In this document: piece by piece, positions 2,433 to 20,755 of the stretch | Layout of the letters: each line of letters starts with the position of its first letter | Numbering within the stretch: the stretch's first letter is position 1 | Origin: an uncultured bacterium | GTDB taxonomy: Bacteria; Myxococcota_A; UBA9042; PHBI01 | Reading direction: 5' to 3' | NCBI GenBank assembly: GCA_938040325.1 | Contig: CALHXW010000022.1 | Coordinates: 1-43,307 of the forward strand | Length of the DNA: 43,307 nt | Notes under the pieces: model-generated | Database searches by the model: none | Told to the model about the DNA's origin: nothing | Seen by the model: the letters and a program-made list of their open reading frames with translations, nothing else | Program-made: the position numbers and the translations under genes

Positions 2433-2460
2433 CATGGTCGCGTACGCAGTCGCTCGTAGG

Positions 2461-2931
2461 CTACTTGGCCCCAGCAGGCTCCGGAGCCTTGATCTCACCC
2501 GCTCCGGAGGAGCGCGCTTCGATCTTCTTCGGCTTCGGCGGCACGTTCGCTTGAGCGTCGAGCTTCATCCGCTTGTTGCCCCACTCAGCACTCATGGCAT
2601 CTCGCGTGTTGATGTCGGCGAAGGTCATCAGAAAGAAGATGCCGACAAAGAGAATCGTGGAGAAGAACACGAAGCTATAGAAGCGGACGTCGTACTTCAG
2701 ATGCATGAAGTAGCCGACAACAAAGCCCGCCTTGATGAGCGCCACAAGCATCGCGACTGCGAGGCTTGCTGAGCCGAGTCCCGCCTGGCTCACGAGCACG
2801 GTCACGACCGTGAGCACCATGAGCGCGCCGAACACCGCAAGGTAGGTCTTGAGCGGCATCACATGATGGCCCTCGTGCGCCGGCTTGGCCGGCTGACCTT
2901 TGACGTATCCTTTGACGTATTCGTGCGACAT
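2461..2931 (-). CDS. ctaF: Cytochrome c oxidase subunit IV (prokaryotic type)
   Basis: A 156-residue small subunit of the caa3 oxidase. A His-containing N-terminus (HEGHHVMPLKTYLAVF) is followed by three hydrophobic helices (about 27-48, 55-77, 85-105), including the family-typical GYFMHLKYD loop, then a Lys/Pro/Ala-rich cytoplasmic tail with PPKPKKIE. The family is thought to stabilise the oxidase and is not catalytic. The start is ambiguous by one codon: ATG at 2931 overlaps the subunit III stop by one base (TGATG), and GTG at 2934 would overlap by four. It is the last gene of the operon, directly before a strong terminator. Confidence 0.9.
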   Translation of the reverse strand: MSHEYVKGYVKGQPAKPAHEGHHVMPLKTYLAVFGALMVLTVVTVLVSQAGLGSASLAVAMLVALIKAGFVVGYFMHLKYDVRFYSFVFFSTILFVGIFFLMTFADINTRDAMSAEWGNKRMKLDAQANVPPKPKKIEARSSGAGEIKAPEPAGAK

Positions 2932-3644: not shown

Positions 3645-3699
3645 TGAGTGAACTCCTGCTTAGCTCGACGTCGCTTCGTGTGACAGGGCGCGAGCGAGA

Positions 3700-5391
3700 T
3701 CAGTGGTGCCCCTCGACCATATCAGGGTCGATCTCGGGGAAGTTGTACGGCGACGCGTCGACGTGCGGCGTGTCGTGGAAGTTGTGCTCGATGGGCGGGC
3801 TCGCGGTGGCCCACTCAAGGGAGACGCCGCCCCATGGGTTCGGACCAGCTTTCTTGCCCTTGAAGATGGCGTGCACCAGGTAGAAGAGCGTCCAGAAGAG
3901 GCCGACGGCCAAGATGAACGAGCCGATCGATGAGGCGACGTGATAGCTCTGGAACTCGGGCAAGTACTCCGCGTAGCGGCGGGGCATGCCCTGCGAGCCG
4001 AGCATGAACTGGCTGAAGAACGTCAGGTTGAAGCCGACGAACACAATGAACGCACCGACCAGGCCAGCTTTCTCGTTGTACATGCGGCCAAACATCTTCG
4101 GCCACCAGTGGTGAAGACCACCGAGGAGCGCAATCACCGTGCCGCCCATCATCACGTAGTGGAAGTGGGCCACGACGAAGTAGCTGTCATGGAAGTGAAC
4201 GTCGACCGACAGAGCGCCCAGGAAGACACCTGTGAGGCCGCCGATCGTGAACGTAAACAGAAAGATCAGCCCGTACATCATCGGGGTGTTCCACGAGATG
4301 CTGCCCTTGTAGAGGGTGGCGACCCAGCTGAAGACCTTGATGGCGGTGGGCACGGCCACGGCGAACGTCAGAAACGAAAACAGCGCGCTCGCGAACTCGG
4401 ACTGACCCGACACGAACATGTGGTGGCCCCACACCAGGAAGCTGATGATGGCGATGGACACCGACGAGAGCGCAATCGCCTTGTAGCCGAAGATGTGCTT
4501 CTTGGAGTGCACAGCAATCAGCTCGCTGACGATACCGAAGCCGGGCAGGATCATGATGTAGACGGCCGGGTGGCTGTAGAACCAGAAGAAGTGCTGGAAG
4601 AGCACCGGGTCGCCGCCGTACTCGGGGTTGAAGATGCCGATCTTGAAGAGCGACTCAACAAGCAAGAGCATGAGCGTGATGGCGAGCACGGGGGTCGCGA
4701 GCACCTGGATGACAGCCGTTGCGTAGAGCGCCCAGATGAAGAGCGGCATGCGGTTCCACGTCATGCCGGGAGCGCGCATCTTGTGGACCGTCACGACAAA
4801 GTTGACGCCCGTGAGGATGGACGAGAACCCGAGCACGAAGATGCCGACTGTCGCGAGGATGACCGGTCCAGTACCCGAGCTGGAGTAGGGCGTGTAGAAG
4901 GTCCAGCCGGTGTCGAGCTGTCCCATCAGGATGGCGAAGAGCAGGATGACGGTGCCGGTGATCCAGATGTAGAGACTCGCGAGGTTCAGCCTCGGAAACG
5001 CCACGTCTTTCGCGCCAAGCATCAGCGGAAGGAAGAAGTTTCCAAGGGCCGCGGGAACGGCCGGCACAATGAACACGAACACCATTAACGCGCCGTGCAA
5101 CGTGAACATCTTGTTGTAGAGCTCTTTACCGGCCGCCCAGCCCTCAGCGGTCCCAGCGAGCGCGCCATCGACGAAGAAGTCGATTTCGGGCGTCATCAAC
5201 TCGATACGGAACAGCACCGCGAGCACACCCGCGACGCCGAACGCCGCCATGGTGCCCACCAGGTACATGATACCGATACGTTTGTGGTCGACCGTTGAAA
5301 GCCAAGACCAGAGGCCGCGTTTCGCGGTCCAAAAGCTCTTTTCGTCGTGGTGGTCGTCGTGTCCGTGACCCTCGACAGTTGTCGTCGCCAT
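3700..5391 (-). CDS. ctaD: Cytochrome c oxidase subunit I, A2-type haem-copper oxidase
   Basis: The 563-residue catalytic subunit with about 12 transmembrane helices. It binds haem a, haem a3 and CuB and reduces O2 to water while pumping protons. Visible ligands: His in LHGALMVF (haem a), HPAVY (CuB His and its cross-linked Tyr, near 271-275), the WGHHMFVSG pair (CuB, near 320), and [14 protein letters not shown] (haem a3 and haem a). The K-channel Lys is in [10 protein letters not shown]. The helix VI segment reads YSHPAVY rather than GHPEVY, the signature of the A2 subfamily, in which Tyr-Ser replaces the D-channel Glu. The N-terminus is His-rich. The ATG at 5391 has AAGAGGGG upstream. Confidence 0.97.
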
Positions 5392-5408
5392 GCGAAAACC
5401 CCTCTTGC

Positions 5409-6410
5409 CTAGTCTTTGAGCGTCTTGATGTAGTCAACAATGGCGTTCAGCTGCAGGTCGTCGAGACGACCCCGGAACGCCGGCATGTTCTCACCCTCGT
5501 ACCCGACAACAATCTGCTTCTCCGGGTAGAGAATGGACTCGCGGATGTAGTTGTCGTCGATGAGCGCGTCTGGACCGCCGACGATCTTCTCCATCGTGTT
5601 GTGCTTGCCCCACAGCGTGGGTCCGACCAGGCGTCCGCCGTCCTTCGTGTCGGTGTGGCAGCTCGCGCAGAACTTCTTGAAGAGCCGTGGACCGTAGTCC
5701 GGCGACTCTGGATCGAGGCCCGGGCAGTCCTTGCTGGCAACCCACTTCGCGAAGTCGTCCTGGCTGAGCACCTGGACGGTCCCGCCCATGTTCGAGTGCT
5801 GCTGTCCGCAGAACTCGGTGCAGAAGAACGGGTAGGTGCCGACGCGCGTCGGCGTCACGGTGAAGCCCGTGTAGCGCGACGGCAACACGTCCCGCTTCGC
5901 GCGCATCGCCGGAATCCAGAACGAGTGGATCACGTCCGACGACGACATCGTCGTCGTGAACGGGCGGTCCACCGGGAGCACGAGCTTGTTGGCGCACTCC
6001 TTGTTCAGGGTCGGGTACTGGATGGTCCAGGACCACTTTTGGCCGAGGATTCGGACGTCGAGAGCGTCGGGCGGCGTCTGCGAGAGCGCCGTGAAGTCAC
6101 GGAAGCCCCACGCGAACACAATGACCATCAGAACGGTCGGAATGGCGCTCCAGAGGAACTCGAGCTTGAAGCTGTGATGAATCGGGCTCGTGCGCTGGTT
6201 GTCGTCCTTCTTTTTGTACTTCACCGCGAAGTAGACCGTCAGGCCCATCAGCAGCACGAAGAAGAAGATCGAGCAGTACAGGATGAAGTCGAAGAGTCCA
6301 TCCACGCCGACAGCAAAGTCCGATGCCTGAGGTGGCATCCAGAATCCGCCGCCAGAGCCGTCCGCCACCAAGATGGGAGCAGACGTCAGAAGAGAACCGA
6401 GTGCACTCAT
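5409..6410 (-). CDS. ctaC: Cytochrome c oxidase subunit II with fused cytochrome c domain (caa3 type)
   Basis: A 333-residue subunit that receives electrons. Two transmembrane helices (about 36-62 and 80-105) lead into a periplasmic cupredoxin domain with the binuclear CuA site [12 protein letters not shown] (near 194-205) and then a C-terminal cytochrome c domain with CASCH (near 248) and a probable Met ligand in GENMPAF. The fusion makes this a caa3-type enzyme. I chose ATG 6410 rather than a start 66 bp further upstream, because it forms an ATGA overlap with the SCO gene and removes a basic, Ser-rich extension lying inside that gene. It is 17 bp from ctaD. Confidence 0.95.
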
Positions 6411-7249
6411 GTTGCGGTCTCCAGAAGATTTCGAGGAGAGGTTTCGTCCACTCGATGGCGTCGCTCGCGACGCCACCAGAAGAGCAGCCAGAGGCCCACG
6501 GTCAGCGCGACGAGTGCGCCACCGATTCGCATAAAGCCCCAGGCAAATGCATAGCCGCCGTGCTCAGGATCGAACACGAAGCAGCTCAAGAGGATCTTGT
6601 CGCCCAGCGTGCCGACACGGCCGTTGGAAGCGTCTATCACCGAGAACTCGATGTCACGCGCGTTGTAGGTCAGGCCGTAGACGTAGCGCGAGATGAGCCG
6701 GTCGGCGCCGAGCACGTACACGACGGGTGAGTGCGCGTACTGTCCGGACGACTCATCGTACTTGTAGCCGTATCCGAGCTGCGCGGTGATCGCAGCGATG
6801 GCCTTCGGCCGCGCCGTCAGAAACGACCAGCTCACGTCGTCGCCCTTCCCGAGGGCGTCGACGTAGGACTTTCGCTTACCCTTCGCGATCTCGGGGGTAT
6901 CGCGAGGGTCAAAGCTAACGGTCACAATCCTGAACTCTTTGCCCGGGACCCAGTCCATCGTCTTGAGCGTCCGCAGCAGCTGGTTGAGCTGCGTGGTGCA
7001 GATACCCTCGCATCGGAAGTAGTTGAGGGTCAGCAGGACCGGCGTCTCGCCGTCGAAGTAGTCGCCGATCTTCCTCACGTCGCCCTCTTCATCGAAGACG
7101 GGGATGTTCGCATCGAGAAACTCTCCGAGCCTCTCTTTGATGTCTGCACCCTTGAACTCGATCGGCAGCGGCGGCGCGGCGTGCGCAGCCGTGCACAACG
7201 TTGCTGAGAGCAGCGCTGCGAGTACGAGGGATGGGAAAAGGCGTTTCAT
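6407..7249 (-). CDS. SCO1/SenC-family copper chaperone with C-terminal membrane anchor
   Basis: A 280-residue protein with a thioredoxin-like fold that delivers copper to the CuA site of subunit II. A cleavable-looking signal (LVLAALLSATLCTAAHA) precedes the SCO domain, with the copper motif CEGIC near 79-83 and the distal His in YAHSPVVYVL. Unlike the usual N-anchored SCO, it has a C-terminal helix (about 235-258, RIGGALVALTVGLWLLFWW) followed by Arg-rich residues, so it should be tethered at the C-terminus. This form is common beside ACIII/caa3 genes. It overlaps ctaC by ATGA, consistent with a dedicated role in CuA assembly. A second SCO gene lies at 15859. Confidence 0.93.
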   Translation of the reverse strand: MKRLFPSLVLAALLSATLCTAAHAAPPLPIEFKGADIKERLGEFLDANIPVFDEEGDVRKIGDYFDGETPVLLTLNYFRCEGICTTQLNQLLRTLKTMDWVPGKEFRIVTVSFDPRDTPEIAKGKRKSYVDALGKGDDVSWSFLTARPKAIAAITAQLGYGYKYDESSGQYAHSPVVYVLGADRLISRYVYGLTYNARDIEFSVIDASNGRVGTLGDKILLSCFVFDPEHGGYAFAWGFMRIGGALVALTVGLWLLFWWRRERRHRVDETSPRNLLETAT

Positions 7250-7748: not shown

Positions 7749-8981
7749 CTAGAAGTTCTCGTGAGCGAGGGACTCGGCCAAGCGCGGGTCCTTAATCGGT
7801 ACCAAGGCCTTGCTGGCCGTGCGCCAAACGAAGACCGCCAAGAAGAGTCCGCCGATGCCGACGAACGCCAGGATGTCGGCGACATGGAACGAGAAGTGGC
7901 TGTGGCCGAAGTGCTCCATCGTGGGCTGGATAATCCAGAACACGTCGATGTAGTGCGCGAAGGCAAGGATCAAGCAGCCAATGGCGTAGGTGAACTTCTT
8001 TCGCTTGATGTGTCGCGACATCAGGAAGAGGAACGGCACGATGAAGTGGAAGACGGCAAGCGCGAGGGAGACCCACTCCCAGCCGCCGGTCGACCGGTGG
8101 GCGTACCACATCGTCTCTTCCGGAATGTTGGCGTACCAGATCAAGAAGTACTGGCTGAAGCCGATGTAGGCCCAGAACACCACGAAGCCAAAAGCGAGCT
8201 TGCCGAGGTCGTGGTAGTGCTCCGCCGTGATGGCCTTCTCGAGGAGGCCGAGGCGCTGAAGGAACATCGACGCGAGGCTGATGGCGACCATGATCATCAT
8301 CACGCAGCTGGCGAAGTAGTAGACGCCGAAGATGGTGGAGTACCAGTGAGGGTCCAGCGACATCATCCAGTCGATGGCCGCGACAGTGGCGCTCAGCGCG
8401 AAGAAGAGGAATCCGAGTGGCGCTGCCCAGCGCATCTTGTGGCTCAGCTCGTCGCCACCCTCTTCGTCCTGCCGGGTCGACCAGCGGTAGAAGGTCACCG
8501 ACATGATCGTCCACACGACGCCGACGACGATGACGCGGATGATGAACCCACCGGAGTTGAGCCACCAGGTCTTGGCCTGGAGGATCTTGTCGTTGGCGAC
8601 AGCGTCTGCATGGCTCCAGTGGAAGAGGTCATGCATGCCGATGATCAACGGGACCGCGAGCAACGCAAAGAGCGGCAGCGTGATCATGAAGTTCTCGGCG
8701 ATGCGTCGCACGACCGTGCTCCAGCCCGCGCGTGAGCCGTGGTGGCAAAGCACGAAGAAGAGCCCGCCGAGCGCGATCGACAGCCAGTACATCAGCGATG
8801 TGACGTACGAGTAGTAGAACTGCTTGTGGTGCCCGTCGTCGCCGCCGCCTGTAACGTAGGCGAGGGCGAGTCCGATAATGCCGACGATCGCAAGCAAGAG
8901 AGGAGCCTTCCGCAGGATGCTGTCCTTCGGAAGCGTTGCCTCTTCAAGCGTGATGGTCGGTGCGTGTCCGTGAGCGCTCAT
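7749..8981 (-). CDS. actF: Alternative complex III subunit ActF
   Basis: A 410-residue polytopic protein of the NrfD-like group with about ten transmembrane helices. It resembles ActC and is one of the two large quinol-interacting membrane subunits of ACIII. Visible traits include a His-rich N-terminus, LFHWSHADAV after the third helix, WMMSLDPHWYSTIFGVYYF, and FSQYFLIWYANIPEET, which is typical of ActF. GAGGAG precedes the ATG at 8981. It lies 7 bp after actE. In known ACIII, ActC and ActF form the membrane core; which of them oxidises quinol here cannot be read from sequence alone. Confidence 0.93.
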   Translation of the reverse strand: MSAHGHAPTITLEEATLPKDSILRKAPLLLAIVGIIGLALAYVTGGGDDGHHKQFYYSYVTSLMYWLSIALGGLFFVLCHHGSRAGWSTVVRRIAENFMITLPLFALLAVPLIIGMHDLFHWSHADAVANDKILQAKTWWLNSGGFIIRVIVVGVVWTIMSVTFYRWSTRQDEEGGDELSHKMRWAAPLGFLFFALSATVAAIDWMMSLDPHWYSTIFGVYYFASCVMMIMVAISLASMFLQRLGLLEKAITAEHYHDLGKLAFGFVVFWAYIGFSQYFLIWYANIPEETMWYAHRSTGGWEWVSLALAVFHFIVPFLFLMSRHIKRKKFTYAIGCLILAFAHYIDVFWIIQPTMEHFGHSHFSFHVADILAFVGIGGLFLAVFVWRTASKALVPIKDPRLAESLAHENF

Positions 8982-8988
8982 AGTCTCC

Positions 8989-9600
8989 TCACTTCAACTC
9001 GCCGCGATGCGCGGCGGGAATCTCGGCAATGTCAGCGCGATGGCTCGCCTGAAGCACACGTACCCAGGCTGCGACAGCCCAACGGTCTTCGACGTTGAGC
9101 TGCGCTGCGTAGGGTTTCATCGTGCCCTTACCGTTGGTGATGACGTCGTAAAGGTAGCCAAGCGGCATCGCCCGGAGGCGAGGCTCTTGGTAGCTCGGCG
9201 GCGCGACAAGCAGTCCGCGCCGCGCGACCACCCCGTCACCGTAGCCGCTGTTGGCGTGGCATGGGGTGCAGTAGATGGCGTAGCGGTCTTCGCCACGCGT
9301 TAGGAGCTCGTCGTTGAGCTCGATGCCAGCGGGCAGTGCGTCGATGAGTCGACCGTCCGCGCCGCGTCCTTGGTGAAGCGACGCGTCCGCTCGAAGGAAG
9401 CCACGGGCGACGGTGCCTTCCACGGCGGGTCGCATGGCGGCTTGGTCGGCAAACCATTCGTTCTTCGACTGAGCTTCGTACCGCTGCTGGAAGTCCATGT
9501 TCAGGTTCGGGTGAACCGGCGGGACATCGGATTTGTTGCCGCGGCAGCCAAAGCTCATGAGCGAGAGGCCGACCGCAAAGGCGATAAGGGCGAATCTCAC
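8989..9600 (-). CDS. actE: Alternative complex III subunit ActE, monohaem cytochrome c
   Basis: A 203-residue periplasmic cytochrome. A short lipoprotein-like signal (AVGLSLMSFGC, Cys near 19) is followed by a monohaem domain with CTPCH (near 110) and a likely Met ligand in GTMKPYAAQL. It would pass electrons from the ACIII iron-sulfur/multihaem chain towards the oxidase. I chose GTG 9600 over longer upstream starts, because GGAGG lies 5 bp before it and the upstream extension is an Arg/Ser-rich read-through of actD. Only one base separates it from the actD stop. The final residues IPAAHRGEL are typical of the subunit. Confidence 0.92.
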   Translation of the reverse strand: MRFALIAFAVGLSLMSFGCRGNKSDVPPVHPNLNMDFQQRYEAQSKNEWFADQAAMRPAVEGTVARGFLRADASLHQGRGADGRLIDALPAGIELNDELLTRGEDRYAIYCTPCHANSGYGDGVVARRGLLVAPPSYQEPRLRAMPLGYLYDVITNGKGTMKPYAAQLNVEDRWAVAAWVRVLQASHRADIAEIPAAHRGELK

Positions 9601-9601
9601 G

Positions 9602-10138
9602 TTATTCCTCCACCAGCTCGATGTGGGTCGCGCCAAGCTTCTTGAAGAGCTTCTTCGTCTTGCGCTTGTCGTAGAGCGGGTCACGCGCTTCGATCGCAAT
9701 GAAGAACTTGTCGTCGGTGACCGCCTGAAAGCGCTCACTGTTGAAGAGCGGGTGGTTGAACGTGGGCAGTCGGTTGACGCCGAACATGCCAAACACCGCA
9801 CCGAACGCACCGAAGAGGACGGTCAGCTCGAACGTGACGGGCATGAACGCTGGCCACGAAAACATCGGCTTGCCCGCGATGAGAATCGGGTAGTCGATCA
9901 CCGTCGTCCACCACTGGAGGGTGAAGCCAGCAATCCCGCCGAGGATGGCCATTCCAAGCACGATCCAAGGGATCTTTGACGGGGGGAGGCCCATTGCTTT
10001 GTCGAGTCCGTGGACGGGGAACGGGGTACAGGCATCCCAGTGCTTGTAGCCCTCGTCTCGGACCTCTTCGCAGGCGTGATAGATGGCGCGCGTGCTATCG
10101 AACTCCGCGAGCATCCCGTAAATCTTCTTTTCAGCCAT
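9602..10138 (-). CDS. actD: Alternative complex III subunit ActD (DUF3341)
   Basis: A 178-residue protein with a cytoplasmic N-terminal part beginning YGMLAEFDS (typical of the family) and two transmembrane helices (about 60-80 and 95-118). [28 protein letters not shown] is the conserved stretch between them, and the C-terminus is cytoplasmic ([10 protein letters not shown]). It is structural in ACIII and carries no cofactor. The first 8 bp overlap the end of actC, and its stop almost touches the GTG of actE, so translation is probably coupled across all three genes. Confidence 0.93.
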
Positions 10139-11567
10139 GAGCGGTAACCTCCTGGGAACCGGCCTCGTCCGAGTGTCCTGCGCCTTCGTCCTCCGGATGC
10201 CAGTGCGGGTCGGCCTGCGGGAGCACCGTCTTCACTTCGGCGATGGCGACCATCGGGATGAAGCGGATGAAGAGGAAGAAGAGGGTGAAGAAGAGTCCAA
10301 AGCTGCCGATCAGGGTCGTGATGTCCCAGATCGTCGGGCTGAAGTAGCCGTGGGCCGACGGAAGGGGGTCGGCCGAGAGCGACATCGTGATGACGAAGCG
10401 CTCAAACCACATCCCGATGTTGACGAAGATGGACAGCACGAAGAGCACGACGACGTTGCGGCGCATCTTCTTAAACCAGAAGAACTGCGGCGTGATGACG
10501 TTGCAGCTCACCATGATCCAGTAGGCCCATGCGTAGTCGCCAAACATACGGTTGGCGAAGGCGAACTGCTCGTACTGGTTGCCGGAGTACATCGCGATGA
10601 AGAACTCCATCCCGTAGGCATAACCAACCAGCGAGCCAGTCAGGAGGATGATCTTGGCCATGTTTTCGAGGTGCTTGGTGGTCACGATATGTTCGAGCTT
10701 GAAGATTTTTCGAGCTGGAATGATGAGCGTGAGCACCATCGCGAAGCCGCTGAAGATAGCGCCTGCCACGAAGTAGGGCGGGAAGATGGTCGTGTGCCAG
10801 CCGTAGACGTTACTGACCGCGAAGTCGAACGACACGATGGTGTGCACGGAGAGCACGAGGGGCGTCGCCAGTGCGGCGAGGATGAGGTAGGTGCGCTCGT
10901 AGTTGAGCCAGTGGCGCATCGAGCCGCGCCAACCCAGAGCGAAGATGCCATAGGCGATCTTGCGTGCCTTGGTCTTGCTGCGGTCGCGCATCGTCGCGAA
11001 GTCCGGGATGAGCCCGACGTACCAGAAGAGGAGCGACACCGTGAAGTAGGTGCTGACTGCGAACACGTCCCACAGAAGCGGGCTCATGAAGTTCGGCCAC
11101 ATGTCCATCTGGTTGGGGATCGGGAAGACCCAGTAGATCACCCAGATACGGCCCACGTGAATACCGGGGAACATCAACGCGCATATGACCGCAAAGATGG
11201 TCATCGCCTCTGCGTATCTGTTGATAGACGTTCGCCAGTCCTGCCTGAACAGGAAGAGGACCGCGGAGATTAGCGTTCCGGCGTGTCCGATGCCGACCCA
11301 GAACACGAAGTTCACGATCGCCCAGCCCCAACCGACAGGGTTGTTGAGACCCCAGATGCCCGTTCCTTCCCAGATGAGGTAGCTCACCGAGACGAGGAAG
11401 ATGCCGAGGAAGAAGACTGCGACGAGGAAGCAGACCCACCACGCACGGTAGTTGTCGGCCTCGAGCGGCGCTGCGACTGCGTCGGTGATCTCCTTAAACG
11501 TCGCTCCGCTCGTTACGAGCGGCGCGCGGCCTTTAATGGGATCGAGCGTGTCTTTCACTGTAGCCAT
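10131..11567 (-). CDS. actC: Alternative complex III subunit ActC (NrfD/PsrC-like quinol-binding subunit)
   Basis: A 478-residue integral membrane protein with about ten helices, related to polysulfide reductase PsrC/NrfD. Visible family segments are [36 protein letters not shown] (with the conserved His and Arg), [10 protein letters not shown], and [19 protein letters not shown]. It should bind menaquinol or ubiquinol near the periplasmic face and hand electrons to the iron-sulfur subunit ActB. A hydrophilic C-terminal tail contains [10 protein letters not shown]. It sits 12 bp after actB and overlaps actD. Confidence 0.95.
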
Positions 11568-11579
11568 TGTCGTCGCCCC

Positions 11580-14576
11580 CTACGCCAGGTCCGGATTGGG
11601 GTTTCGCAGCTTCGCCAGGTAGGTGGTGCGCGGGCGCGTATTGAACTCGCGGAGCACCTGATAGTTGCGCTGCTGTGAACGCATCTTGGATACCCGGCTC
11701 TCCGGGTCCTTGATGTCGCCAAAGGTGATGGCCCCAACCGGGCAGGTTTGCTCGCACGCGGTCACAACGCCGCCGTCCGGGATGATCCCGTCGCCGTTGA
11801 CCTTTGCGTCAATCTTGGCGCCGTTGATGCGCTGGACGCAGTACGTGCACTTCTCCATCACACCACGGAACCGGATCGTCACGTCCGGGTTCTTCTGCAT
11901 CTGCTGCAGCGGGTGGATGTCGAGGTTGAAGTTGAAGAAGTTGAAGCGCCGGACCTTGTAGGGACAGTTGTTGGCGCAGTAGCGCGTCCCGATGCAGCGG
12001 TTGTAGGCCATGTCGTTGAGCCCTTCCGGGCTGTGGGCCGTTGCCTTGACCGGGCAGACCGCTTCGCATGGCGCGGTCTCGCAGTGCTGGCACGCCAGCG
12101 GCTGCAGGATCGCCTTCGGGTCGTCTTCGTCGCCCGTGTAGTAACGGTCGAGGCGAATCCAGTGCATCTCCCGACCGTTGAGGACCTGGTCCTTGCCGAC
12201 GACGGAGATGTTGTTCTCAGCGGTGCACGCTACGATGCAGGCATTGCAGCCAATGCACGTGTTGAGGTCAATGGCCATGCCCCACTGCTGGGCGCCACCC
12301 ATCTCGAACTTATCGTAGACATGTGACTTGACCTTGTAGGCCGGCATGACCTCATCGAGCTTCTTGTTGAACTGCTCGGGGTCGGCCTTGTAGGAAGCGG
12401 CCGTCGACTCGAGGGCGAGCGGACGCCCACTGAACATCTCTTCGCTGAACACTTTGCCAGGGTCTTGCCGATTGCCCGACGGTTGCGTGTCGGCGAGCTC
12501 GTAGCTACCGCCGTCCGCCGTGACGGTTGCGCTCGCAAAGAGGCTTCCGTCAGCCGGCAGGATTTCGTAGGCGTCAAAGCCTGCGCCCGTCGCGACGGCG
12601 CCGAACTTTCGTCCGTAGCCGAGTGCGAGCGCGCCCGTGCCGTGTGCTTGGCCGGGGGTGAGCTTCACGGCGACCTGCAGCGACTTGCCGCCAACGGTGA
12701 TCGTCGCCAGCTCTTTATCGCCAAGGCCGAGGTCGTTGGCTGTCTTGCGGCTGACAAGGAGCGCGTTGTCCCACGTCAGCTTGGTCATGGGGTCGGGCGT
12801 CTCTTGAAGGATTCCAAGGTTCGCGTACCGGCCGTCGAGCACCGATGGGTCGACGTAGAAGTTGACCTCTAGGTTGCCGCTGCCGGGAGCCTTTGCGCCT
12901 GCAAGCAGAGCCGCGGCTGCGGCCCAGTCCCCAGCCGAGCCAGCCACGACACTCGAGTGCGCGACGATGCCGTCGTGCAGGGCTTTGCGCCAGCTGCCGT
13001 CGTTGAGTCCGGCACGCTTGCTCAGCGCGTCACGGACCAGGGCATAGCCACTGGTGGGTGCGCCAGTCGCGAGCCGTCCGAGTGCTTCCAGCACGCTCGG
13101 CGTGTGAAAGAGCGGCGCGATGAGCGGCTGGACCATGGAGGTGACGCCCGTCAGCGACTGAAGGTCGCCCCAGGCTTCCAGGTAGTGACTTACGGGGATG
13201 TGGAGCTTCGACAGCTGCGCTGTCTCGTCTCGGAACATGCCGAGGTGGACGGTGTAGGCCTTCGCAAGTGCCTCGCCGAGCCCGAGGGCGCCGGATGAGG
13301 TGTAGGCAGGGTTCGAGTCGAGGCAAAGCACCTTCGTGGCCGCGCCGCTGGTGAGAGCAGCCGCAAGCTCAGCCGGTGTCCCGCCGCCCAGCCACGTCTC
13401 GTCCTTGCGCCACACAACGTGCTTGTTGTTGCCAAGTGCGCCGTTGATCGCGAGGCCCAAGGCGTGGACCCAGGCCGGCTGCCGAGACCCGACAACCACG
13501 GCCGAAGCGCCTTTGGCGCCAGCGAGGTCTGCCGCGAGGGTGTTGACGAAGTCGGCGGCCTTCTTGCCGAGTTGCGGGGCAGCGCCGAGCTTGCCAGCAA
13601 CGCCCTTCGGCAAGCTCACGCCTTTGGCGGTCAGGCCGTGGGCCAACGAGAGCAGGATCTGTCCGACGTCGGCGCCTCGCGCCTGGAGTCGATGGTCGGC
13701 CATAGAGCCGGTCAGGCTAAAGACGGGCTCGACGGCGTAGAGCCGGTTGGAAACGTCGCCAGGCGCCATCGTCCGGCGTCCCGCGGCGAAGTCCCGCGCG
13801 ACCTGAAGGCCGTTCGTCTCGGTGAAGAGCATGTCGGCGTCAAACGCCGCGATGACTCTCGCGCCCTCCAGATTGGTGGTGACGTAGCTTCCTTTGCCGC
13901 CGATCGCCTCGGACGCCGCGAACCCGTTGTGGTTGAACGTCGGGTCGGATGTGTAGTGCTTGGCCTTTGGCATCGCCGCAAGCAAGCCGCTGAGTGCCGA
14001 GCGGACCGTTGGTGACATGACCGTTCCGGTCACGATCGCAAGGCCTGCGCCCTCATCTGCCTTGGCGTTCTTGGCAAACGTGTCGAACGCAGTCCAGGCG
14101 AGCTCCCACGTCGCGTCGCCGGTCGCGCCATCCTTTGCGATGGTCGGTGCCTCGGAGCGGTCGAGGTTGTAGAGGTTAAAGACCGACGCCTGAGCCCATG
14201 CAGACGCTGCGCCCTTCGAGCCGGCGTGCTGCGGGTTGCCCTCGATCTTGGTCGGGCGACCGTCATGGCTCTCGACGAGCAGCCCCTCGACGGTCGCACC
14301 AGCGCTGAAGCTGGTAGCGTAGTACACCGGGACGCCTGGGATGAAGTCTTCGGGCCGCTTAGCGTAGGGCACGATCTTCTGCTCGGGCTTGCGAAGACAG
14401 CCGCTCAGCGCGGCAGCCGACGCGACAGCGGCGCCAGTACCTAGGAAGCCGCGACGCGAGACGGCGTCGATAACGAGCTCGCCTGCGGCCTCGCCGAACT
14501 CGCGCCCGTCTGAGTCGCTGGTCCCATCATAGTCGTCGTAGCTCTGCCAGTGACGATCATCGGTAGTCGTAGTCAT
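11580..14576 (-). CDS. actB: Alternative complex III subunit ActB, fused molybdopterin-like and iron-sulfur protein
   Basis: A 998-residue periplasmic subunit. A Tat signal with SRRGFLG (near 40) runs into a lipobox-like LSGC, so export by Tat and lipid anchoring are likely. Residues about 60-730 resemble a molybdopterin oxidoreductase fold; in this family the pterin site is vestigial. Residues about 745-975 form a four-cluster ferredoxin module: CIGCNACIVAC, CQHCETAPCEAVC, CIGTRYCANNC, and CTYC followed by CEQTC. It passes electrons from the quinol site to the haems of ActA and ActE. Fusion of the two halves is normal for ActB. It begins 9 bp after actA. Confidence 0.95.
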   Translation of the reverse strand: MTTTTDDRHWQSYDDYDGTSDSDGREFGEAAGELVIDAVSRRGFLGTGAAVASAAALSGCLRKPEQKIVPYAKRPEDFIPGVPVYYATSFSAGATVEGLLVESHDGRPTKIEGNPQHAGSKGAASAWAQASVFNLYNLDRSEAPTIAKDGATGDATWELAWTAFDTFAKNAKADEGAGLAIVTGTVMSPTVRSALSGLLAAMPKAKHYTSDPTFNHNGFAASEAIGGKGSYVTTNLEGARVIAAFDADMLFTETNGLQVARDFAAGRRTMAPGDVSNRLYAVEPVFSLTGSMADHRLQARGADVGQILLSLAHGLTAKGVSLPKGVAGKLGAAPQLGKKAADFVNTLAADLAGAKGASAVVVGSRQPAWVHALGLAINGALGNNKHVVWRKDETWLGGGTPAELAAALTSGAATKVLCLDSNPAYTSSGALGLGEALAKAYTVHLGMFRDETAQLSKLHIPVSHYLEAWGDLQSLTGVTSMVQPLIAPLFHTPSVLEALGRLATGAPTSGYALVRDALSKRAGLNDGSWRKALHDGIVAHSSVVAGSAGDWAAAAALLAGAKAPGSGNLEVNFYVDPSVLDGRYANLGILQETPDPMTKLTWDNALLVSRKTANDLGLGDKELATITVGGKSLQVAVKLTPGQAHGTGALALGYGRKFGAVATGAGFDAYEILPADGSLFASATVTADGGSYELADTQPSGNRQDPGKVFSEEMFSGRPLALESTAASYKADPEQFNKKLDEVMPAYKVKSHVYDKFEMGGAQQWGMAIDLNTCIGCNACIVACTAENNISVVGKDQVLNGREMHWIRLDRYYTGDEDDPKAILQPLACQHCETAPCEAVCPVKATAHSPEGLNDMAYNRCIGTRYCANNCPYKVRRFNFFNFNLDIHPLQQMQKNPDVTIRFRGVMEKCTYCVQRINGAKIDAKVNGDGIIPDGGVVTACEQTCPVGAITFGDIKDPESRVSKMRSQQRNYQVLREFNTRPRTTYLAKLRNPNPDLA

Positions 14577-14585
14577 CGTCTCCCC

Positions 14586-15260
14586 TTACCGGTGGCAGCC
14601 GGAGCAGTGCTGAGGCGGATCCACCGCCCGCGTCTTGCCGTCTGGCCCAAGGTTGCGGTGTGGGTCGTTAGACCAGTCGTAGGGCGGGTTGGTGCCGTCC
14701 CACGTCATGTTGGTGACCTCCGACTTTGGCCGGAGGTTCGGCTCTGGATTTCGGTGGCAGTCAAGGCACCAGCTCATCGAGAGCGGCGCGTGCTGGTACA
14801 CCACTTCCATCTGGTCGATCCGACCGTGACAGCTCACGCAGCCGACGCCTGCGGCCACGTGGACGCTGTGGTCGAAGTAAGCGTAGTCAGGAAGCATGTG
14901 GACCTTGACCCACTCGAGAGGGGCTTTGCCCTCGTAGGCGTCCTTGACGGGCTGGAAACGTGCCGCGGTCTCGCCCAAGTCGAGCTGCGAGTGGCAGTTC
15001 ATGCAGGTCGCCGGTGGCGGGATCGCTGCATGCCCGGCCTCTTCGACCGTGTTGTGACAGTAGCGACAGTCCATGCCGAGCGCGCCGGCATGCAACTTGT
15101 GGCTAAAGGGCACCGGTTGCTCTGGTTGGTAGCCAACCTCGAGAAACTTGGGTGAGAAGTAGTACCAGACAAAGAAGACAACTCCGCAGAGCACGACCGG
15201 CGCGCCAACGCCAATCATGAAGGGAATCTTGTTTGTCCAACGCGGGAAGATCTGGGCCAC
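14586..15260 (-). CDS. actA: Alternative complex III subunit ActA, pentahaem cytochrome c
   Basis: A 224-residue membrane-anchored multihaem cytochrome. One N-terminal helix (about 14-34) is followed by a periplasmic domain with five CXXCH motifs: CRYCH, CMNCH, CVSCH, CLDCH and CSGCH, the last at the extreme C-terminus. The HKLHAGALGMDCRYCHN opening is typical of class III/multihaem cytochromes in ACIII. It starts with GTG at 15260 preceded by GGAAG. As first structural gene of the act set it follows the lipoprotein cytochrome by 11 bp. Confidence 0.95.
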   Translation of the reverse strand: MAQIFPRWTNKIPFMIGVGAPVVLCGVVFFVWYYFSPKFLEVGYQPEQPVPFSHKLHAGALGMDCRYCHNTVEEAGHAAIPPPATCMNCHSQLDLGETAARFQPVKDAYEGKAPLEWVKVHMLPDYAYFDHSVHVAAGVGCVSCHGRIDQMEVVYQHAPLSMSWCLDCHRNPEPNLRPKSEVTNMTWDGTNPPYDWSNDPHRNLGPDGKTRAVDPPQHCSGCHR

Positions 15261-15271
15261 TGTGTCTTCCT

Positions 15272-15862
15272 CTACGAGCCGTGGGTTGAGGATTCCGAGC
15301 GCGACGGGTGCGCATCGGTCGGTTTTGAGGCGCGGATGACGCCTCGCAGGAATGAATCACTGTTCATCGTGTTCTGACCGCCGCGGAAGCTAGCAGCACG
15401 TCGCGAGGCTGGCAACAAGGTTCGGGCCCTCGTTTTCGGTGTCTCCACCGGGGCACGCCAGCGTGGCGAGAATGCCTTAATATACTGGATGATTGCGATG
15501 AGATCGGCGTCGCGCAGGTGTGCCCACGCTGGCATGCCGGTCCCGGGTACTCCGTGCCTGACGACCTGCAGGAGATCGGCATCGCTCGGTCGTTGGGGGT
15601 TGTCGGTGTGTTTAAAGTCGCCGTCGACGAAGTCTCGTGGACGCGGATCGAGGTTGCGAGCGGCCGAGGTATCGGCGCGCCCGTCATAGCCGTGACACGA
15701 TGCACAGTAGCGATCGAAGAAGTGTTTGCCCTGGTTGAGGGTCTCCGCTGAGACCACAACGCCGTCGAGCGTCAGCGGCTCCTTGAAGGTCTCGCCACCG
15801 CAGGCAGCCATCCATCCGGCGCCTGTCATGAACACCACAGCCAGTGCTGCGCGTGCGGTCAT
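15272..15862 (-). CDS. Lipoprotein monohaem cytochrome c
   Basis: A 196-residue protein. A signal with lipobox-like GWMAAC (Cys near 21) precedes a class I cytochrome c domain: CASCH near 55, a distal Met ligand in GVPGTGMPAWAHL, and IQYIKAFSPRW closing the fold. About 60 further residues are Arg/Ser/Thr-rich with no recognisable domain; this tail may be disordered or may reflect a late frameshift. It probably carries electrons between ACIII and caa3, or serves oxidase maturation, since it is coupled by an ATGA overlap to the upstream SCO gene and lies directly before actA. Confidence 0.85.
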   Translation of the reverse strand: MTARAALAVVFMTGAGWMAACGGETFKEPLTLDGVVVSAETLNQGKHFFDRYCASCHGYDGRADTSAARNLDPRPRDFVDGDFKHTDNPQRPSDADLLQVVRHGVPGTGMPAWAHLRDADLIAIIQYIKAFSPRWRAPVETPKTRARTLLPASRRAASFRGGQNTMNSDSFLRGVIRASKPTDAHPSRSESSTHGS

Positions 15863-16533
15863 GGCGCACCGCCTTCAAGCCGTTCTTCCGCGACGACGTT
15901 GCCGGCGTGGCCTACCAGGGCGCGCCGGCCTTCGCTCGTGGAGTCGAAGTAGTAGCGAATCCAGTGGTCACGATCGACGAGCACAAGCTTCGAGGAGTGG
16001 CTGATGTCGACAACGCCGCCGTCATCGGTCTTGTCGCCCATCGCGGTGTTGAAGCCCTTCACCAGCAGCTTGAAGATCGTGTCGCGATCGCCGGTCAAAA
16101 AGCGCCAGCGTTCCGGATCAGCGTCGTAGGTCCGAGCGTAGTGTGTGAGGGCCTCTGGCGTGTCGCTGCCTGGATCGACTGTGATGCTCACGAGCTTGAC
16201 GTCGAGCCCAGCCTCTTTCAGCTCACGCTGGAGCGCCTGTTTGGCCCGCGACACACGCGGGCAGATGGTCGTGCATGTCGTGAAGAAGAAGCTCGCGACC
16301 CACACCTCACCGCGGAGCTGCTCGCTTCCGTACTCGGCGCCCGTCTGGTCGGTCAGCGTAAACGCCGGGACCTCGTAGAGTCTCGACAGCGGCTTGACGC
16401 GCTTTCCGTCGCCGATGCAAACGCGCATGCCTGTGAGGACCATCACGCCGAAGACAGCCGCGATGAACCAGACCGAGGTGTAGAAGGGCTTGTCCGCAGT
16501 CGGGCGGTCGGTGGTTGGCTCAGTCGTGCTCAT
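15859..16533 (-). CDS. SCO1/SenC-family copper chaperone, N-terminally anchored
   Basis: A 224-residue classical SCO protein. After a hydrophilic stretch, one transmembrane helix (about 22-42, WFIAAVFGVMVLTGM) precedes a thioredoxin-fold domain with the copper motif CTTIC near 90-94 and the distal His in DISHSSKLVLVD. It should insert or reduce copper in the oxidase CuA site. The ATG at 16533 is preferred over a start 36 bp upstream because it makes an ATGA overlap with the permease stop. It differs from the C-terminally anchored SCO at 6407, so the locus encodes two SCO types that could act on different steps or redox states. Confidence 0.92.
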   Translation of the reverse strand: MSTTEPTTDRPTADKPFYTSVWFIAAVFGVMVLTGMRVCIGDGKRVKPLSRLYEVPAFTLTDQTGAEYGSEQLRGEVWVASFFFTTCTTICPRVSRAKQALQRELKEAGLDVKLVSITVDPGSDTPEALTHYARTYDADPERWRFLTGDRDTIFKLLVKGFNTAMGDKTDDGGVVDISHSSKLVLVDRDHWIRYYFDSTSEGRRALVGHAGNVVAEERLEGGAP

Positions 16534-17366
16534 GCGCCGGGCCCCTTGCGTCGACGGCTCACATAGCAAGCGAGCACCAGCATCAAGAGCGCAAACCCGC
16601 CGAGCAGGGCGAACGCGGCTGGCGGGCTGTGGACGTACGTCAGGCCAGCCTCACCTGCAAACGCGCTTCGCAGCCCGTCGACAAACCATGTCATTGGATT
16701 GGCGGCCATGAAGACGCCAAGCGTGCCGCCTGCGGCCGGGAACAGAGCGCCGGAGAGCAGCCAGAGCGGGAGCAGCAGCGCCGCCATGATCGCGTGGTAG
16801 CCATGGGTGCTGGGGATGAGCCACGCAAAGACGAACGATAGGGCGGTCAGGCCGACCGCGCCGAGCACGAGTGCGCCGATGAGCGCTGGCCAGTTGAGCG
16901 CGAGCAGGTCGATGCCGGCAAGCGGGGCGACCGCAAGGATCAGCGCGACCTGAATCAGGGCCATCGTCACCACGCCGAGGGTCTTTCCGACGACCAGGGC
17001 AAGCCGGGAGCCGGGCGCGACGAGCACCTGTTGGAGAAACCCAGCGTTGCGATCCTCGATGACGCTCATCGTGGCGAAGATCGTTGTGAACAGCACCACC
17101 ATCACGATCATGCCCGGGAACATGAAGCCGAACGCGTCGGCACCTGCGCGAGCAGCGAACACATCGTCGAGTCCGGCGGCGATGATCAGCCAAAAAAGAA
17201 GGGGCTGCGCCACGACACCAAACCAGCGCGACTTCTCGCGCCAGAGGTGAAGCATGTCGCGCTTCCAGAGCGTCAGCGCGAGACCGACGTCGGGTGAGCG
17301 TTTCGTGGAGTCGGCCGCGCGGATCCCGGGCCTGCTCGCGTTAGAGGCGGACGTCGAGGCGCTCAT
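16530..17366 (-). CDS. ABC-2 type transporter permease of the oxidase assembly operon
   Basis: A 278-residue membrane protein of the ABC-2 exporter family with six hydrophobic segments. It starts with a hydrophilic Ser/Ala-rich region and ALTLWKRDMLHLWREKSRWFG, as in the DrrB/NodJ group, and contains FPGMIVMVVLFTTIFATMSVIEDRNAGFLQQVLVAP, the family core. It pairs with the ATPase encoded immediately upstream (ATGA overlap) and is coupled the same way to the SCO gene downstream. The substrate is unknown; its place between haem O synthase and SCO suggests a role in oxidase biogenesis. Confidence 0.88.
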   Translation of the reverse strand: MSASTSASNASRPGIRAADSTKRSPDVGLALTLWKRDMLHLWREKSRWFGVVAQPLLFWLIIAAGLDDVFAARAGADAFGFMFPGMIVMVVLFTTIFATMSVIEDRNAGFLQQVLVAPGSRLALVVGKTLGVVTMALIQVALILAVAPLAGIDLLALNWPALIGALVLGAVGLTALSFVFAWLIPSTHGYHAIMAALLLPLWLLSGALFPAAGGTLGVFMAANPMTWFVDGLRSAFAGEAGLTYVHSPPAAFALLGGFALLMLVLACYVSRRRKGPGA

Positions 17367-18319
17367 GCCGCTGCCTCCATCCGTTCGGAGCCCCGCTGGG
17401 ACTCGATCAACGCCAAGACCGCGTCACTGAGCGAGGGGCGGCGCACCGTCAGCTCGGAGATGGCGTCGGTCTCGGTCAGCTCGAAGAGCCGGGCGGCCAC
17501 TGCGGGACCGTCGCTGCAGTGTACGGTCAACGAACCCTCACCGCGGACGACCTGCGCGTCAGCCAGAGCGCTGGCAAGCTGCCGGCTCAGCTCGGCGCTG
17601 TCGCCGCGTGTGGTCAGCTCGACCGTGTCGCCGCCCAGCCGAGCGAGCGTCTCTTCGGGCATCTCGTCGGCCACGAGGCGGCCCTCGTGCATGATCCACA
17701 CGCGATCGCAGCGCTCGGCTTCGTTGGCGTCGTGGGTCGCGACCAAGATCGTGACGTCTGTGAGGCTGTCGAGGAGCTCCCAGAGGTCACGCACCGAGGC
17801 GATGTCGAGTCCGGTCGTTGGCTCGTCGAGAACCAGGAGCGCTGGGCGATGGACGAGAGCACGTGCGATGTCGAGACGTCGGCGCATCCCGCCCGAGTAC
17901 TGCTTGGTGATCTCGTCGCCGCGGTCGGCCAGACGCGCCCATGTCAGCAGCTCAGTCGCTCGAGAGCGTGCCTCCTTTCGGGATAGCCCTTGGATCCGAC
18001 CCGCCATGACGATGTTCTCACGCGCGGTGAGCGTTCCATCGACGCTTGGCGACTGAAAGACCACGCCCATCGACGAGCGAAAGCCGACGTCGACGGGCAT
18101 TAGAGACGTCTTCGCAACCGGAACGGTCATCGTGATCGAGCCTGCGTCTGGGACCAAGAGTCCCGTGATCGCGCTCAAGAGCGTCGACTTGCCGCTGCCG
18201 TTGGCGCCGACCAAAGCGATGGTCTCTCCGGTGTTGACCGACGCGGTGACAGCGTTGACGGCGACTCGCTCTCCAAAGCGCACGGTCAATGCGTCGACTG
18301 CGACGAAGGGCGTGTTCAT
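17363..18319 (-). CDS. ABC transporter ATP-binding protein of the oxidase assembly operon
   Basis: A 318-residue nucleotide-binding protein. Walker A is GANGSGKST (near 37-45), followed by a Q-loop in VVFQSPSVDGTLTARENI, signature YSGGMRRRLDIARAL, Walker B LLVLDEPTTGLD, and the switch His in VATHDANEAE. About 85 residues after the ATPase core resemble the C-terminal regulatory region of DrrA-type exporters. The frame is open far upstream, but ATG 18319 gives the ATGA overlap with ctaB and a normal N-terminus (FVAVDALTVRFG). It works with the permease encoded next. Confidence 0.9.
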   Translation of the reverse strand: MNTPFVAVDALTVRFGERVAVNAVTASVNTGETIALVGANGSGKSTLLSAITGLLVPDAGSITMTVPVAKTSLMPVDVGFRSSMGVVFQSPSVDGTLTARENIVMAGRIQGLSRKEARSRATELLTWARLADRGDEITKQYSGGMRRRLDIARALVHRPALLVLDEPTTGLDIASVRDLWELLDSLTDVTILVATHDANEAERCDRVWIMHEGRLVADEMPEETLARLGGDTVELTTRGDSAELSRQLASALADAQVVRGEGSLTVHCSDGPAVAARLFELTETDAISELTVRRPSLSDAVLALIESQRGSERMEAAA

Positions 18320-19233
18320 CGCAGTGCTACGTCGATGACGAGGCCAGCGACCAGCACCGGCAAGTACACGAGTGACGCAGCGAAGAGGCGGTAGGCCCAG
18401 CGAGCGTCCGAGCGTGCCCAGAAGCCTGCCACCACCACCGCGCCAAAGCCGATGCCGCACGCGAGCGCGGTCCCGCCGTAGATCCAGCCGGCGGTGCCGA
18501 GGGGCAAGAGCGCCATGCTGACCGGAAGCAGAACGACCGTCCAAGCGAGGGCCTGCCACTTCGCAGCACGGTGGCCCCGCACGATCGGCACCGTCTTGAT
18601 GCCCGCGGCACGGTAGTCGTGCTCGCGGAAGATGGCGATCGCGATGAAGTGCGGCATCTGCCACGCAAGAAGCGTCCCGAAGAGCGCGAGCCCGGCGAGG
18701 TCGATGGTGTTGGTGACCGCGGCCCAACCGAGGAGCGGCGGGATGGCGCCCGGGATGGCCCCAACGAAGAGCGCCAGCGGCGAGACATATTTTAGCGGCG
18801 TGTAGACCAAGACGTAGCTGAGCAACGCCGCGGCCGCGAGGGCGGTCGTCCAGCCGTTGGTCCCCAACGCCAACACGACCAACCCGACGATGCCGATGGC
18901 GATGCCGAACACGAGCGCACGCGGTTGCTCAAGGCGTCCCGCGGCGAGCGGACGGTCTTGAGTCCGCTTCATGAGCTTATCGGTCTCGCGCTCCCACCAC
19001 ATGTTGAGAGCGTTGGCAGAGCCGACCGTCAGTGCAGTGCCGATCAGTGCCCAGATGGCCGGACCAAGCGCGATCTGACCAGGAGCGAGCGCGAAGCCAC
19101 CCGCCGTCATCAACAAGCACATGCGATTGATGGACGGCTTGGTGAGCGCGACGTAGTCGCGCATCGACGCGAGCATTCCGCGTGGTGCAACAGCGGTTGT
19201 CGGTGCGACAGATTGCGATGGTAGCTGGGTCAT
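18316..19233 (-). CDS. ctaB: Protohaem IX farnesyltransferase (haem O synthase)
   Basis: A 305-residue polytopic UbiA-family prenyltransferase that converts haem B to haem O for the A-type oxidase. The prenyl-diphosphate/Mg site is in the first Asp-rich motif (NALNMWWERETDKLMKRTQDRPL, shown here in two parts around WERETD and KRTQDR). LTKPSINRMCL marks the start of the membrane domain, and the second motif region is WQMPHFIAIAIFREHDYRAAG. About nine helices are predicted. It overlaps ctaA and the ABC ATPase gene by ATGA at each end, so haem A biosynthesis and the exporter are co-translated. Confidence 0.95.
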   Translation of the reverse strand: MTQLPSQSVAPTTAVAPRGMLASMRDYVALTKPSINRMCLLMTAGGFALAPGQIALGPAIWALIGTALTVGSANALNMWWERETDKLMKRTQDRPLAAGRLEQPRALVFGIAIGIVGLVVLALGTNGWTTALAAAALLSYVLVYTPLKYVSPLALFVGAIPGAIPPLLGWAAVTNTIDLAGLALFGTLLAWQMPHFIAIAIFREHDYRAAGIKTVPIVRGHRAAKWQALAWTVVLLPVSMALLPLGTAGWIYGGTALACGIGFGAVVVAGFWARSDARWAYRLFAASLVYLPVLVAGLVIDVALR

Positions 19234-20234
19234 GCCACCACCTTACGGCTCGGGTTGGGGTTTGTCCGCGCGGGCGATGATGCCGCGGCAGCGTTGTTTG
19301 TGACCGGTTCGCCGAGAGGGCCGAAGCCGATGTAGAGCAGAAACACCGAGGCGAGTAGCAGGCCCCCGACAATGGTGTGGCCCGCGACAATCGCGACCGA
19401 CCGACCTGTGTAGACGGTGAGGAGGCCGAGCGCGACCTGGGCGATGACCAACACAACCGGTGCCCATGCCAGGGTGGCGACCTTGCGACGGCCGGCTTCC
19501 GATGCCTGACGCTTCGCACGCAGCGCTAGGGCGACAACCGCAACGGCAACCGCATAGCCAACGAAGCGATGCAGCATGTGGAGCTGGGCGAGCCCGAGCT
19601 CAGGCCAGAGGCCCTGACCGGCGCACCCGACAACGTCGTCGCCGCAGATAAGCCCAGCCCCAAAGTGGCGAATCGCGCCGCCAAGCGTCGCCTGGAGCAG
19701 CACCAAGCCGAACGCGACCGCGAGAAACACTCGGGCGAGCGTCCGTCCACTGGTCGGGGCGATGCGCCGCTTTGGCAGTGCCCGCCAGACCAAGAGGAGG
19801 GTTAGGCAGAAGAAGATGTAGCCGAGCATCAGGTGGGCCGTCGAGACAACCGGATGGAGGCGTGCGATGACGGTGAGTCCTCCGAGAGCGCCCTGGAGGA
19901 TGACGAGGATCAGCGCGGCTAGCGTGAGCCACTTGGTCGACTTATGGACGTCTTTTGAGAGCCAGGCCCATGCAGCTGTCGCGAGGGTCGCGATGCCCAC
20001 GAGCGTTCCCCAGAGCCGGTGACCGTGCTCATAGAGGACGCCGCCCTCCATCGCTGGGAAGACCTCACCGCGGCAGAGTGGGATGAGGCCCCAGAAGAAC
20101 TCCCAGTTCGGGCATGCGAGGCTCGACCCGGTGGGGTTCACCGTGCTGCCAATGGCGAGCATGATGAAGGTCAGAGCCGCCGTGATTCCCGCGACGATGA
20201 GCAATCCGCGGTGTCGTGCCGTCTTTGCGCTCAT
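19230..20234 (-). CDS. ctaA: Haem A synthase (CtaA/COX15 family)
   Basis: A 334-residue eight-helix membrane protein that oxidises the haem O methyl group to formyl, giving haem A. Two homologous four-helix halves are visible. Conserved residues include Glu and His in AMEGGVLYEHGHRLWG, His in ARLHPVVSTAHLMLG, HMLHRFVGY and VAGHTIVGG. Paired cysteines occur in extracellular loops 1 (CPNWEFFWGLIPLC) and 3 (CGDDVVGC), as in the Bacillus-type enzyme, where such disulfides matter for activity. It is flanked by ATGA overlaps with the Cys-rich protein upstream and ctaB downstream. Confidence 0.94.
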   Translation of the reverse strand: MSAKTARHRGLLIVAGITAALTFIMLAIGSTVNPTGSSLACPNWEFFWGLIPLCRGEVFPAMEGGVLYEHGHRLWGTLVGIATLATAAWAWLSKDVHKSTKWLTLAALILVILQGALGGLTVIARLHPVVSTAHLMLGYIFFCLTLLLVWRALPKRRIAPTSGRTLARVFLAVAFGLVLLQATLGGAIRHFGAGLICGDDVVGCAGQGLWPELGLAQLHMLHRFVGYAVAVAVVALALRAKRQASEAGRRKVATLAWAPVVLVIAQVALGLLTVYTGRSVAIVAGHTIVGGLLLASVFLLYIGFGPLGEPVTNNAAAASSPARTNPNPSRKVVA

Positions 20235-20755
20235 GTTGGCGCCTCGGCTTTGAGGCGGCAGTACTCAAAGAGCGTCCGGTAGGCTGCAACGCAGCTCTTG
20301 CGGATGATCCGTGACGAGCCACGGTTGACGTCGTGTTCCAAGCACTTATCGAACGCCCAGCGTCCGTCTGGGAACTCGTCCTTCATGTGGTCGCACTCGC
20401 CAAACCGGTTCTTGCCGGCAAGGCAGACCTCGACGGTCTTCTCGACACCCTTGAGACAGAGTTCCGGGATCGCGCTCTTCTGGCACTCGTCAAACCACAC
20501 CAACACGTCGCCGATGCACTGGGTCGCCGTGAGGGTCTTTCCGGTGGTCTGCAGCTCGGTGACCTTCTCGGTGATGACGGCATCCGACTGCTTGAAGCTC
20601 GAGTAGGCGAGCACGCCGAGGAGCGATCCGATGGTGATGAGAGCAGCCAGCATGAGGTACGCGCCCTTCGCGGAGCGCTCAGGCGGTTCGGTCACAGGTG
20701 CTGGGCCTTTGGTCGTCACGAGCGGGTCATACGACCTGCGTCGGCGGTCGGTCAA
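20231..20755 (-). CDS. Membrane-anchored eight-cysteine protein with repeated CX10C spacing
   Basis: An unrecognised protein of up to 174 residues, first gene of the respiratory run and coupled to ctaA by ATGA. It has a short cytoplasmic N-terminus, one helix (about 31-52, GAYLMLAALITIGSLLGVLAYSS) and a periplasmic domain with eight Cys. Their spacing is C-10-C-8-C-10-C-9-C-16-C-16-C-10-C, so three pairs share CX10C within helical-looking segments, for example CIGDVLVWFDEC and CVAAYRTLFEYC. This recalls the disulfide-bonded helix hairpins (CX9C/CX10C) of eukaryotic oxidase factors, though homology is not established. Start choice is uncertain: TTG 20755, or GTG at 20719 or 20695. Confidence 0.8.
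   Translation of the reverse strand: MTDRRRRSYDPLVTTKGPAPVTEPPERSAKGAYLMLAALITIGSLLGVLAYSSFKQSDAVITEKVTELQTTGKTLTATQCIGDVLVWFDECQKSAIPELCLKGVEKTVEVCLAGKNRFGECDHMKDEFPDGRWAFDKCLEHDVNRGSSRIIRKSCVAAYRTLFEYCRLKAEAPT

Follow-up and report, generated by a model that had tools for sequence, protein, structure and literature searches.

The window analysed here is a stretch of 43,307 nucleotides from an uncultured bacterium of the Myxococcota_A, and its minus strand carries a long series of genes for haem synthesis and respiration (Table 1). The first of them encodes a small cysteine-rich protein, after which the gene order is ctaA-ctaB-ABC-Sco-cytochrome c-ActABCDEF-Sco-coxBACD; its upstream neighbour is a divergent SUA5-like gene. 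A preliminary description of this DNA had placed the cysteine-rich gene at the head of a haem A/caa3 assembly operon, and this is borne out by the Pfam matches of the ctaA, ctaB, Sco, Act and cox genes. The ATGA overlap with ctaA, which had also been described, is present as well: the stop codon (TGA) of the first gene and the start codon (ATG) of ctaA share these four nucleotides, and the ctaA/ctaB junction has the same kind of overlap. The sequence of the junction suggests that the first gene and ctaA are translationally coupled through ATGA. An ABC-2 transporter consisting of an ATPase and a permease (positions 16530-18290) lies between ctaB and Sco, and the permease is found in the same place in several genomes (L039, L047, L049, L059, L060, L061).

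Table 1. Features of the operon headed by the eight-cysteine gene, with positions in the window; residue numbers are those of the 174-residue translation.
Feature	Position	Strand	Evidence or remark
Eight-Cys membrane-anchored, putatively periplasmic protein, first gene of the operon	20231..20755	-	start TTG 20755 or GTG 12 codons inward
Transmembrane segment, residues 32-50, running on as a predicted helical stalk to residue 74	20606..20662	-	hydropathy; AlphaFold2 helix 29-74
Predicted twin CX10C helical hairpin, C80-C91/C100-C111	20423..20518	-	AlphaFold2 helices 77-94, 97-112, pLDDT about 90; invariant Cys
Predicted second lobe, C121, C138, C155, C166; last pair CX10C in helix 149-171	20258..20395	-	AlphaFold2 helices 117-125, 132-140, 149-171, pLDDT 67-87; invariant Cys
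ATGA overlap, stop of eight-Cys gene/start of ctaA	20231..20234	-	sequence
ctaA, haem A synthase (COX15-CtaA)	19230..20234	-	PF02628 5.5e-39
ctaB, haem O synthase (UbiA family)	18316..19233	-	PF01040 2.7e-55
ABC-2 permease; ATPase gene just upstream (stop at 17363)	16530..17366	-	PF01061
SCO1/SenC copper chaperone	15859..16569	-	PF02630 1.8e-28
Membrane or lipoprotein cytochrome c	15272..15862	-	PF13442
Alternative complex III genes ActA-ActF	7749..15260	-	ActD PF11821 4.9e-70, NrfD, multihaem cytochrome; ORFs
Sco1 and caa3 oxidase structural genes coxB, coxA, coxC, coxD	2461..7249	-	PF02630, PF00116, PF00510, PF03626

The first gene encodes a protein of 174 amino acids, and its location on the minus strand is the sole amendment to the preliminary description, which gave no strand. 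Its start codon is uncertain, with two candidates (Table 1). In agreement with that description, the translation has one hydrophobic segment by hydropathy and eight cysteine residues, all of them following this segment, at positions 80, 91, 100, 111, 121, 138, 155 and 166 (gaps of 10-8-10-9-16-16-10). The cysteine-bearing domain would lie on the periplasmic side of the membrane. When the domain was shuffled, three or more CX10C gaps appeared in just 0.13% of trials; conservation of the cysteine residues is a stronger test than this frequency. The genome of the window has one copy of the gene.

An initial search revealed homologues in seven further genomes of the window's class, with 22-34% identity and eight cysteine residues in all of them. 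With a profile of these first eight members, 35 of 379 Myxococcota genomes proved to contain the family, and a profile of 40 members raised this to 40 of the 379 sampled; one candidate (L077, E near 0.005) was dropped as spurious. The alignment of the first eight members offers no conserved stretch by which distant relatives could be reached across GTDB. When a Nannocystaceae sub-alignment was searched against GTDB contigs, only 11 loci were reached, labelled Nannocystaceae, Polyangia, Myxococcales, Deltaproteobacteria, "proteobacterium" or "bacterium". With so few loci reached, the family is possibly also present outside Myxococcota. The preliminary description had recognised no family for the protein, and likewise we found no match in Pfam, NCBIfam, PDB sequences or PDB folds, nor any description in the literature or in curated families. 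Weak Pfam/NCBIfam matches of single members to Rv2743c, Coa3_cc and PglZ were set aside as isolated.

In the alignment of the 40 members, in which mean column identity is about 25%, the eight cysteine residues are the only fully invariant columns, so that the conservation asked for in the preliminary description extends to all 40 homologues. They form the framework C-X10-C-X6..9-C-X10-C-X9..10-C-X15..37-C-X9..31-C-X10-C, the exceptions being X11 in the first gap of two members and X4 in the second gap of one (L069). Additional cysteine residues usually come in pairs: the ctaB-adjacent copies of Nannocystaceae have ten, with the extra pair in the C6-C7 loop, and one paralogue (L058) also has ten; the lone exception is L060, which has nine. 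Because extra cysteine residues have been gained in pairs and no other residue is invariant, the eight cysteine residues probably form four structural disulfides. The extra pair in the Nannocystaceae copies (L079-L089, e.g., L079:5063-5356) gives a lineage-specific K-C-P/A-C-A motif. The same loop is 31 residues long in L074 and L075, both of which are linked to the oxidase locus, and includes a conserved insertion, KPAKGFWDR(M/I)LFGGGRQTP, not seen elsewhere.

A structure was predicted by AlphaFold2 using the window protein and eleven homologues as input. The full-length model (pLDDT 81.6, pTM 0.67) has helices at residues 29-74, which include the anchor and the stalk, 77-94, 97-112, 117-125, 132-140 and 149-171, and a model of the domain by itself agrees with it (pLDDT 78.5, pTM 0.74). 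The predicted architecture is an anchor-plus-stalk helix followed by a symmetric CX10C/CX10C hairpin, whose two helices (77-94 and 97-112) bear C80/C91 and C100/C111, respectively, and by a second lobe of three helices. The CX10C pairs are each on one face of a helix, and the paired helices carrying CX10C cysteines that had been anticipated from the sequence are seen in the model. The turn of the hairpin has its cysteine residues placed symmetrically on either side (80+111 = 91+100 = 191), and an antiparallel arrangement would join C1 with C4 and C2 with C3, an assignment derived from this symmetry only. Searches of PDB with the full-length and domain models using Foldseek, which is weak on such short motifs, gave no match at E<=0.001 and listed no CHCH protein.

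The genomic context of the family is conserved. In linked genomes the gene is always located directly upstream of ctaA or ctaB, across eight family-level groups, and Sco, cytochrome c, ActA and ActB usually come next. On the tree, this place beside haem O/A synthesis genes is shared by all 28 members that do not belong to one paralogous clade (support 99/97) or to two remote homologues (L069 and L076), and the label "oxidase-linked" needs 2 changes, versus 10.5 when shuffled. The linkage has outlasted rearrangements among the adjacent genes and is kept even where sequence identity falls to about 20%. Thus, the co-occurrence with an oxidase-assembly locus suggested in the preliminary description is conserved over many Myxococcota families, and homologues away from oxidase genes, which it would have counted against its idea, are limited to the paralogous clade and the two remote homologues and include no orthologue.

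Which of the neighbours is the actual partner? The gene adjoins ctaA in G000, G001, G002, G007, G075, G094, G132, G158 and G307, and where ctaA lies elsewhere it remains with ctaB. In one genome (G365) the gene-ctaB pair is at about 282 kb on a contig of 380,892 bases (C28), at least 98 kb from the contig ends; ActB, both Sco genes and coxA are on another contig (C23), and ctaA is on a third (C32). This separation from ActB, Sco and coxA makes haem synthesis the tightest association and haem O synthase the closest partner.

Within the phylum, the nearest homologues of coxA belong to genomes that carry the eight-cysteine gene. The gene does not accompany every copy of this oxidase cluster: ctaB and cox genes occur without it in three genomes of the window's class (G003, G019, G022), several other genomes have ctaB, most of them with cox genes, and lack it, and it is missing from several genomes with a fairly close coxA. 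In five relatives without the gene (G098, G225, G185, G247, G296), neither a homologue nor a cysteine-rich substitute was found upstream of ctaB. In G003, which belongs to the window's order, ctaB is followed by Sco and a divergent repeat-rich gene replaces the eight-cysteine gene (L120:417-1289). Since some relatives have the oxidase without the gene, the protein is not universally required, which points to an accessory role confined to a single lineage of the oxidase. Co-inheritance of the gene and the oxidase is confounded by their shared ancestry.

Members of the paralogous clade have various neighbours, including a sigma-54 response regulator and a secretin (L055), a Na/H exchanger (L056) and other genes. 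In L055 (positions 1469-7083; Nannocystaceae), the paralogue is directly upstream of the sigma-54 response regulator assigned by Pfam, which is followed by a gene for a 347-amino-acid protein without a Pfam match and a GspD-type secretin gene; in L052 (2148-7707; also Nannocystaceae), it is directly upstream of the same regulator, again assigned by Pfam, and the locus has genes of matching length (343 and 795 amino acids). The two remote homologues (L069:6376-6873 and L076:286-720) have the same eight-cysteine framework with second-lobe gaps of X19 and X9-10, away from oxidase genes, and a wider superfamily may exist around them. The location of the paralogous clade away from oxidase genes indicates that the domain itself is not oxidase-specific; it is a reusable envelope module.

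What could such a module do at the oxidase locus? On the basis of the gene linkage and the predicted architecture, we propose that the protein is a maturation factor peculiar to this lineage, a periplasmic scaffold stapled by disulfides that assists the haem A/caa3 oxidase served by alternative complex III, a role that we consider slightly on the probable side. The N-terminal helix would anchor the protein in the inner membrane, and the helical stalk would raise the small five-helix domain into the periplasm, where the four putative disulfides would staple the helices of the CX10C/CX10C hairpin and the second lobe. The stapled domain would most likely serve as a docking scaffold that keeps CtaB/CtaA, and in most genomes also Sco, near nascent CoxA/CoxB, and ordered insertion of haem O/A and copper would result from this docking. 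Haem supply, not copper, is presumably the step served: the family has no CC, CXXC or conserved His or Met, and in G365 the gene is separated from both Sco genes, two observations that speak against copper handling. Transfer of haem A from CtaA/CtaB into the oxidase is a poorly understood step, and a dedicated protein genetically bound to ctaB would give a handle on it.

Other explanations should be weighed against this scaffold. The protein might be a small accessory subunit of the mature supercomplex of alternative complex III and caa3 oxidase, a periplasmic clamp stapled by disulfides and joining the cytochrome c domains, like COX6B or the hinge protein of complex III. In most genomes the gene shares a cluster with those of both complexes, one anchor with a small periplasmic domain is typical of such subunits, and the gene tracks a particular coxA clade. 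However, it adjoins ctaA/ctaB, which are biosynthesis genes, and lies outside the structural genes of the act and cox sets, it stays with ctaB in G365 while act and cox are on another contig, and sister genomes have the complex without it; we therefore regard a subunit as unlikely. The original idea of copper- or thiol-handling chemistry, which can be framed as a counterpart of COA6/COX17/COX19 maintaining the proper redox state of Sco or of the CuA site in CoxB, would suit a periplasmic cysteine-rich domain usually adjoining a Sco gene, and the added pair in the Nannocystaceae copies is CPC or CAC, CPC being the redox motif of Mia40 (PMC4951193). Yet this CXC pair is confined to one lineage and the window protein lacks it, the invariant cysteine residues look structural only, and the motif and linkage data that disfavour copper handling apply here too, so that this idea is unsupported and appears quite improbable.

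It could also be argued from the unlinked paralogues, with their regulator, secretin, exchanger and other neighbours, that the protein is a general envelope domain having no role in the oxidase and that its place before ctaA/ctaB arose by chance and was conserved with the order of the operon. Such an accident is hard to reconcile with linkage in every member outside the paralogous clade and the two remote homologues, at such low identities and despite rearrangement of the neighbouring genes, and we give it little credence.

The scaffold that we favour would probably be a new family performing a known kind of task. Bacterial oxidase assembly factors known so far include Surf1, Cox11/CtaG, caa3_CtaG, CtaM, Sco and CtiP, as reviewed in PMC9145763, where a search for Myxococcota or CX9C proteins found none. 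The eight-cysteine protein resembles them in being membrane-bound, in its putative role in oxidase maturation and in a location near cta genes, which is frequent among them, and it matches none of them in Pfam or NCBIfam. Plant 2S albumins (Ara h 2 and Ara h 6), which are also small helical eight-cysteine domains, appear in the Foldseek list without significance (E 7.6-9.3); unlike them, the protein has no CC and CXC core, and its context is unrelated.

A further analogy is with the mitochondrial twin CX9C/CHCH proteins. Like the putatively periplasmic eight-cysteine protein, they reside at the p-side of an energy-coupling membrane, and they too have a link with cytochrome c oxidase. Pairs of the CX9C-CX10C type occur in COX6B, COA6 and COA5 (PMC7909247). 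As in these proteins and in COX17 and COX19, two neighbouring helices, predicted in the present case, each carry a CX9-10C pair arranged symmetrically about a turn. The preliminary description had suggested an oxidase assembly factor with a CHCH-like fold; the oxidase-assembly locus and the paired CX10C helices of the model uphold one part of this suggestion, and membership in the CHCH/CX9C proteins is rejected. Pfam hits of the 40 members include no CHCH, COX6B, COX17 or CX9C family at E up to 10, hhalign gave a probability of 0.1% against COX6B1, COX19 and COX17 (of these sequences, that of COX6B1 was checked against PDB), and the PDB-sequence and Foldseek searches were negative as well. Unlike CHCH proteins, the eight-cysteine protein is anchored in the membrane and has eight cysteine residues and a second lobe. 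A CC pair is the copper-binding motif of COX17; the window protein does not have it, nor is it conserved across the family. The resemblance is thus confined to the hairpin and its framework, and by analogy the protein may work as CHCH proteins do, aiding assembly of the oxidase from the p-side with a domain stapled by disulfides. It is tempting to go further, in what can be only a tentative and rather doubtful proposal, and suppose that bacteria have independently evolved a membrane-tethered counterpart of the CX9C/CX10C factors, a stapled scaffold at the periplasmic exit of CtaB/CtaA handing haem A to the nascent oxidase. If so, this Myxococcota protein family, hitherto unannotated and now named, would represent convergence with the mitochondrial factors in an equivalent compartment with no detectable homology, and would provide a bacterial test system for them.
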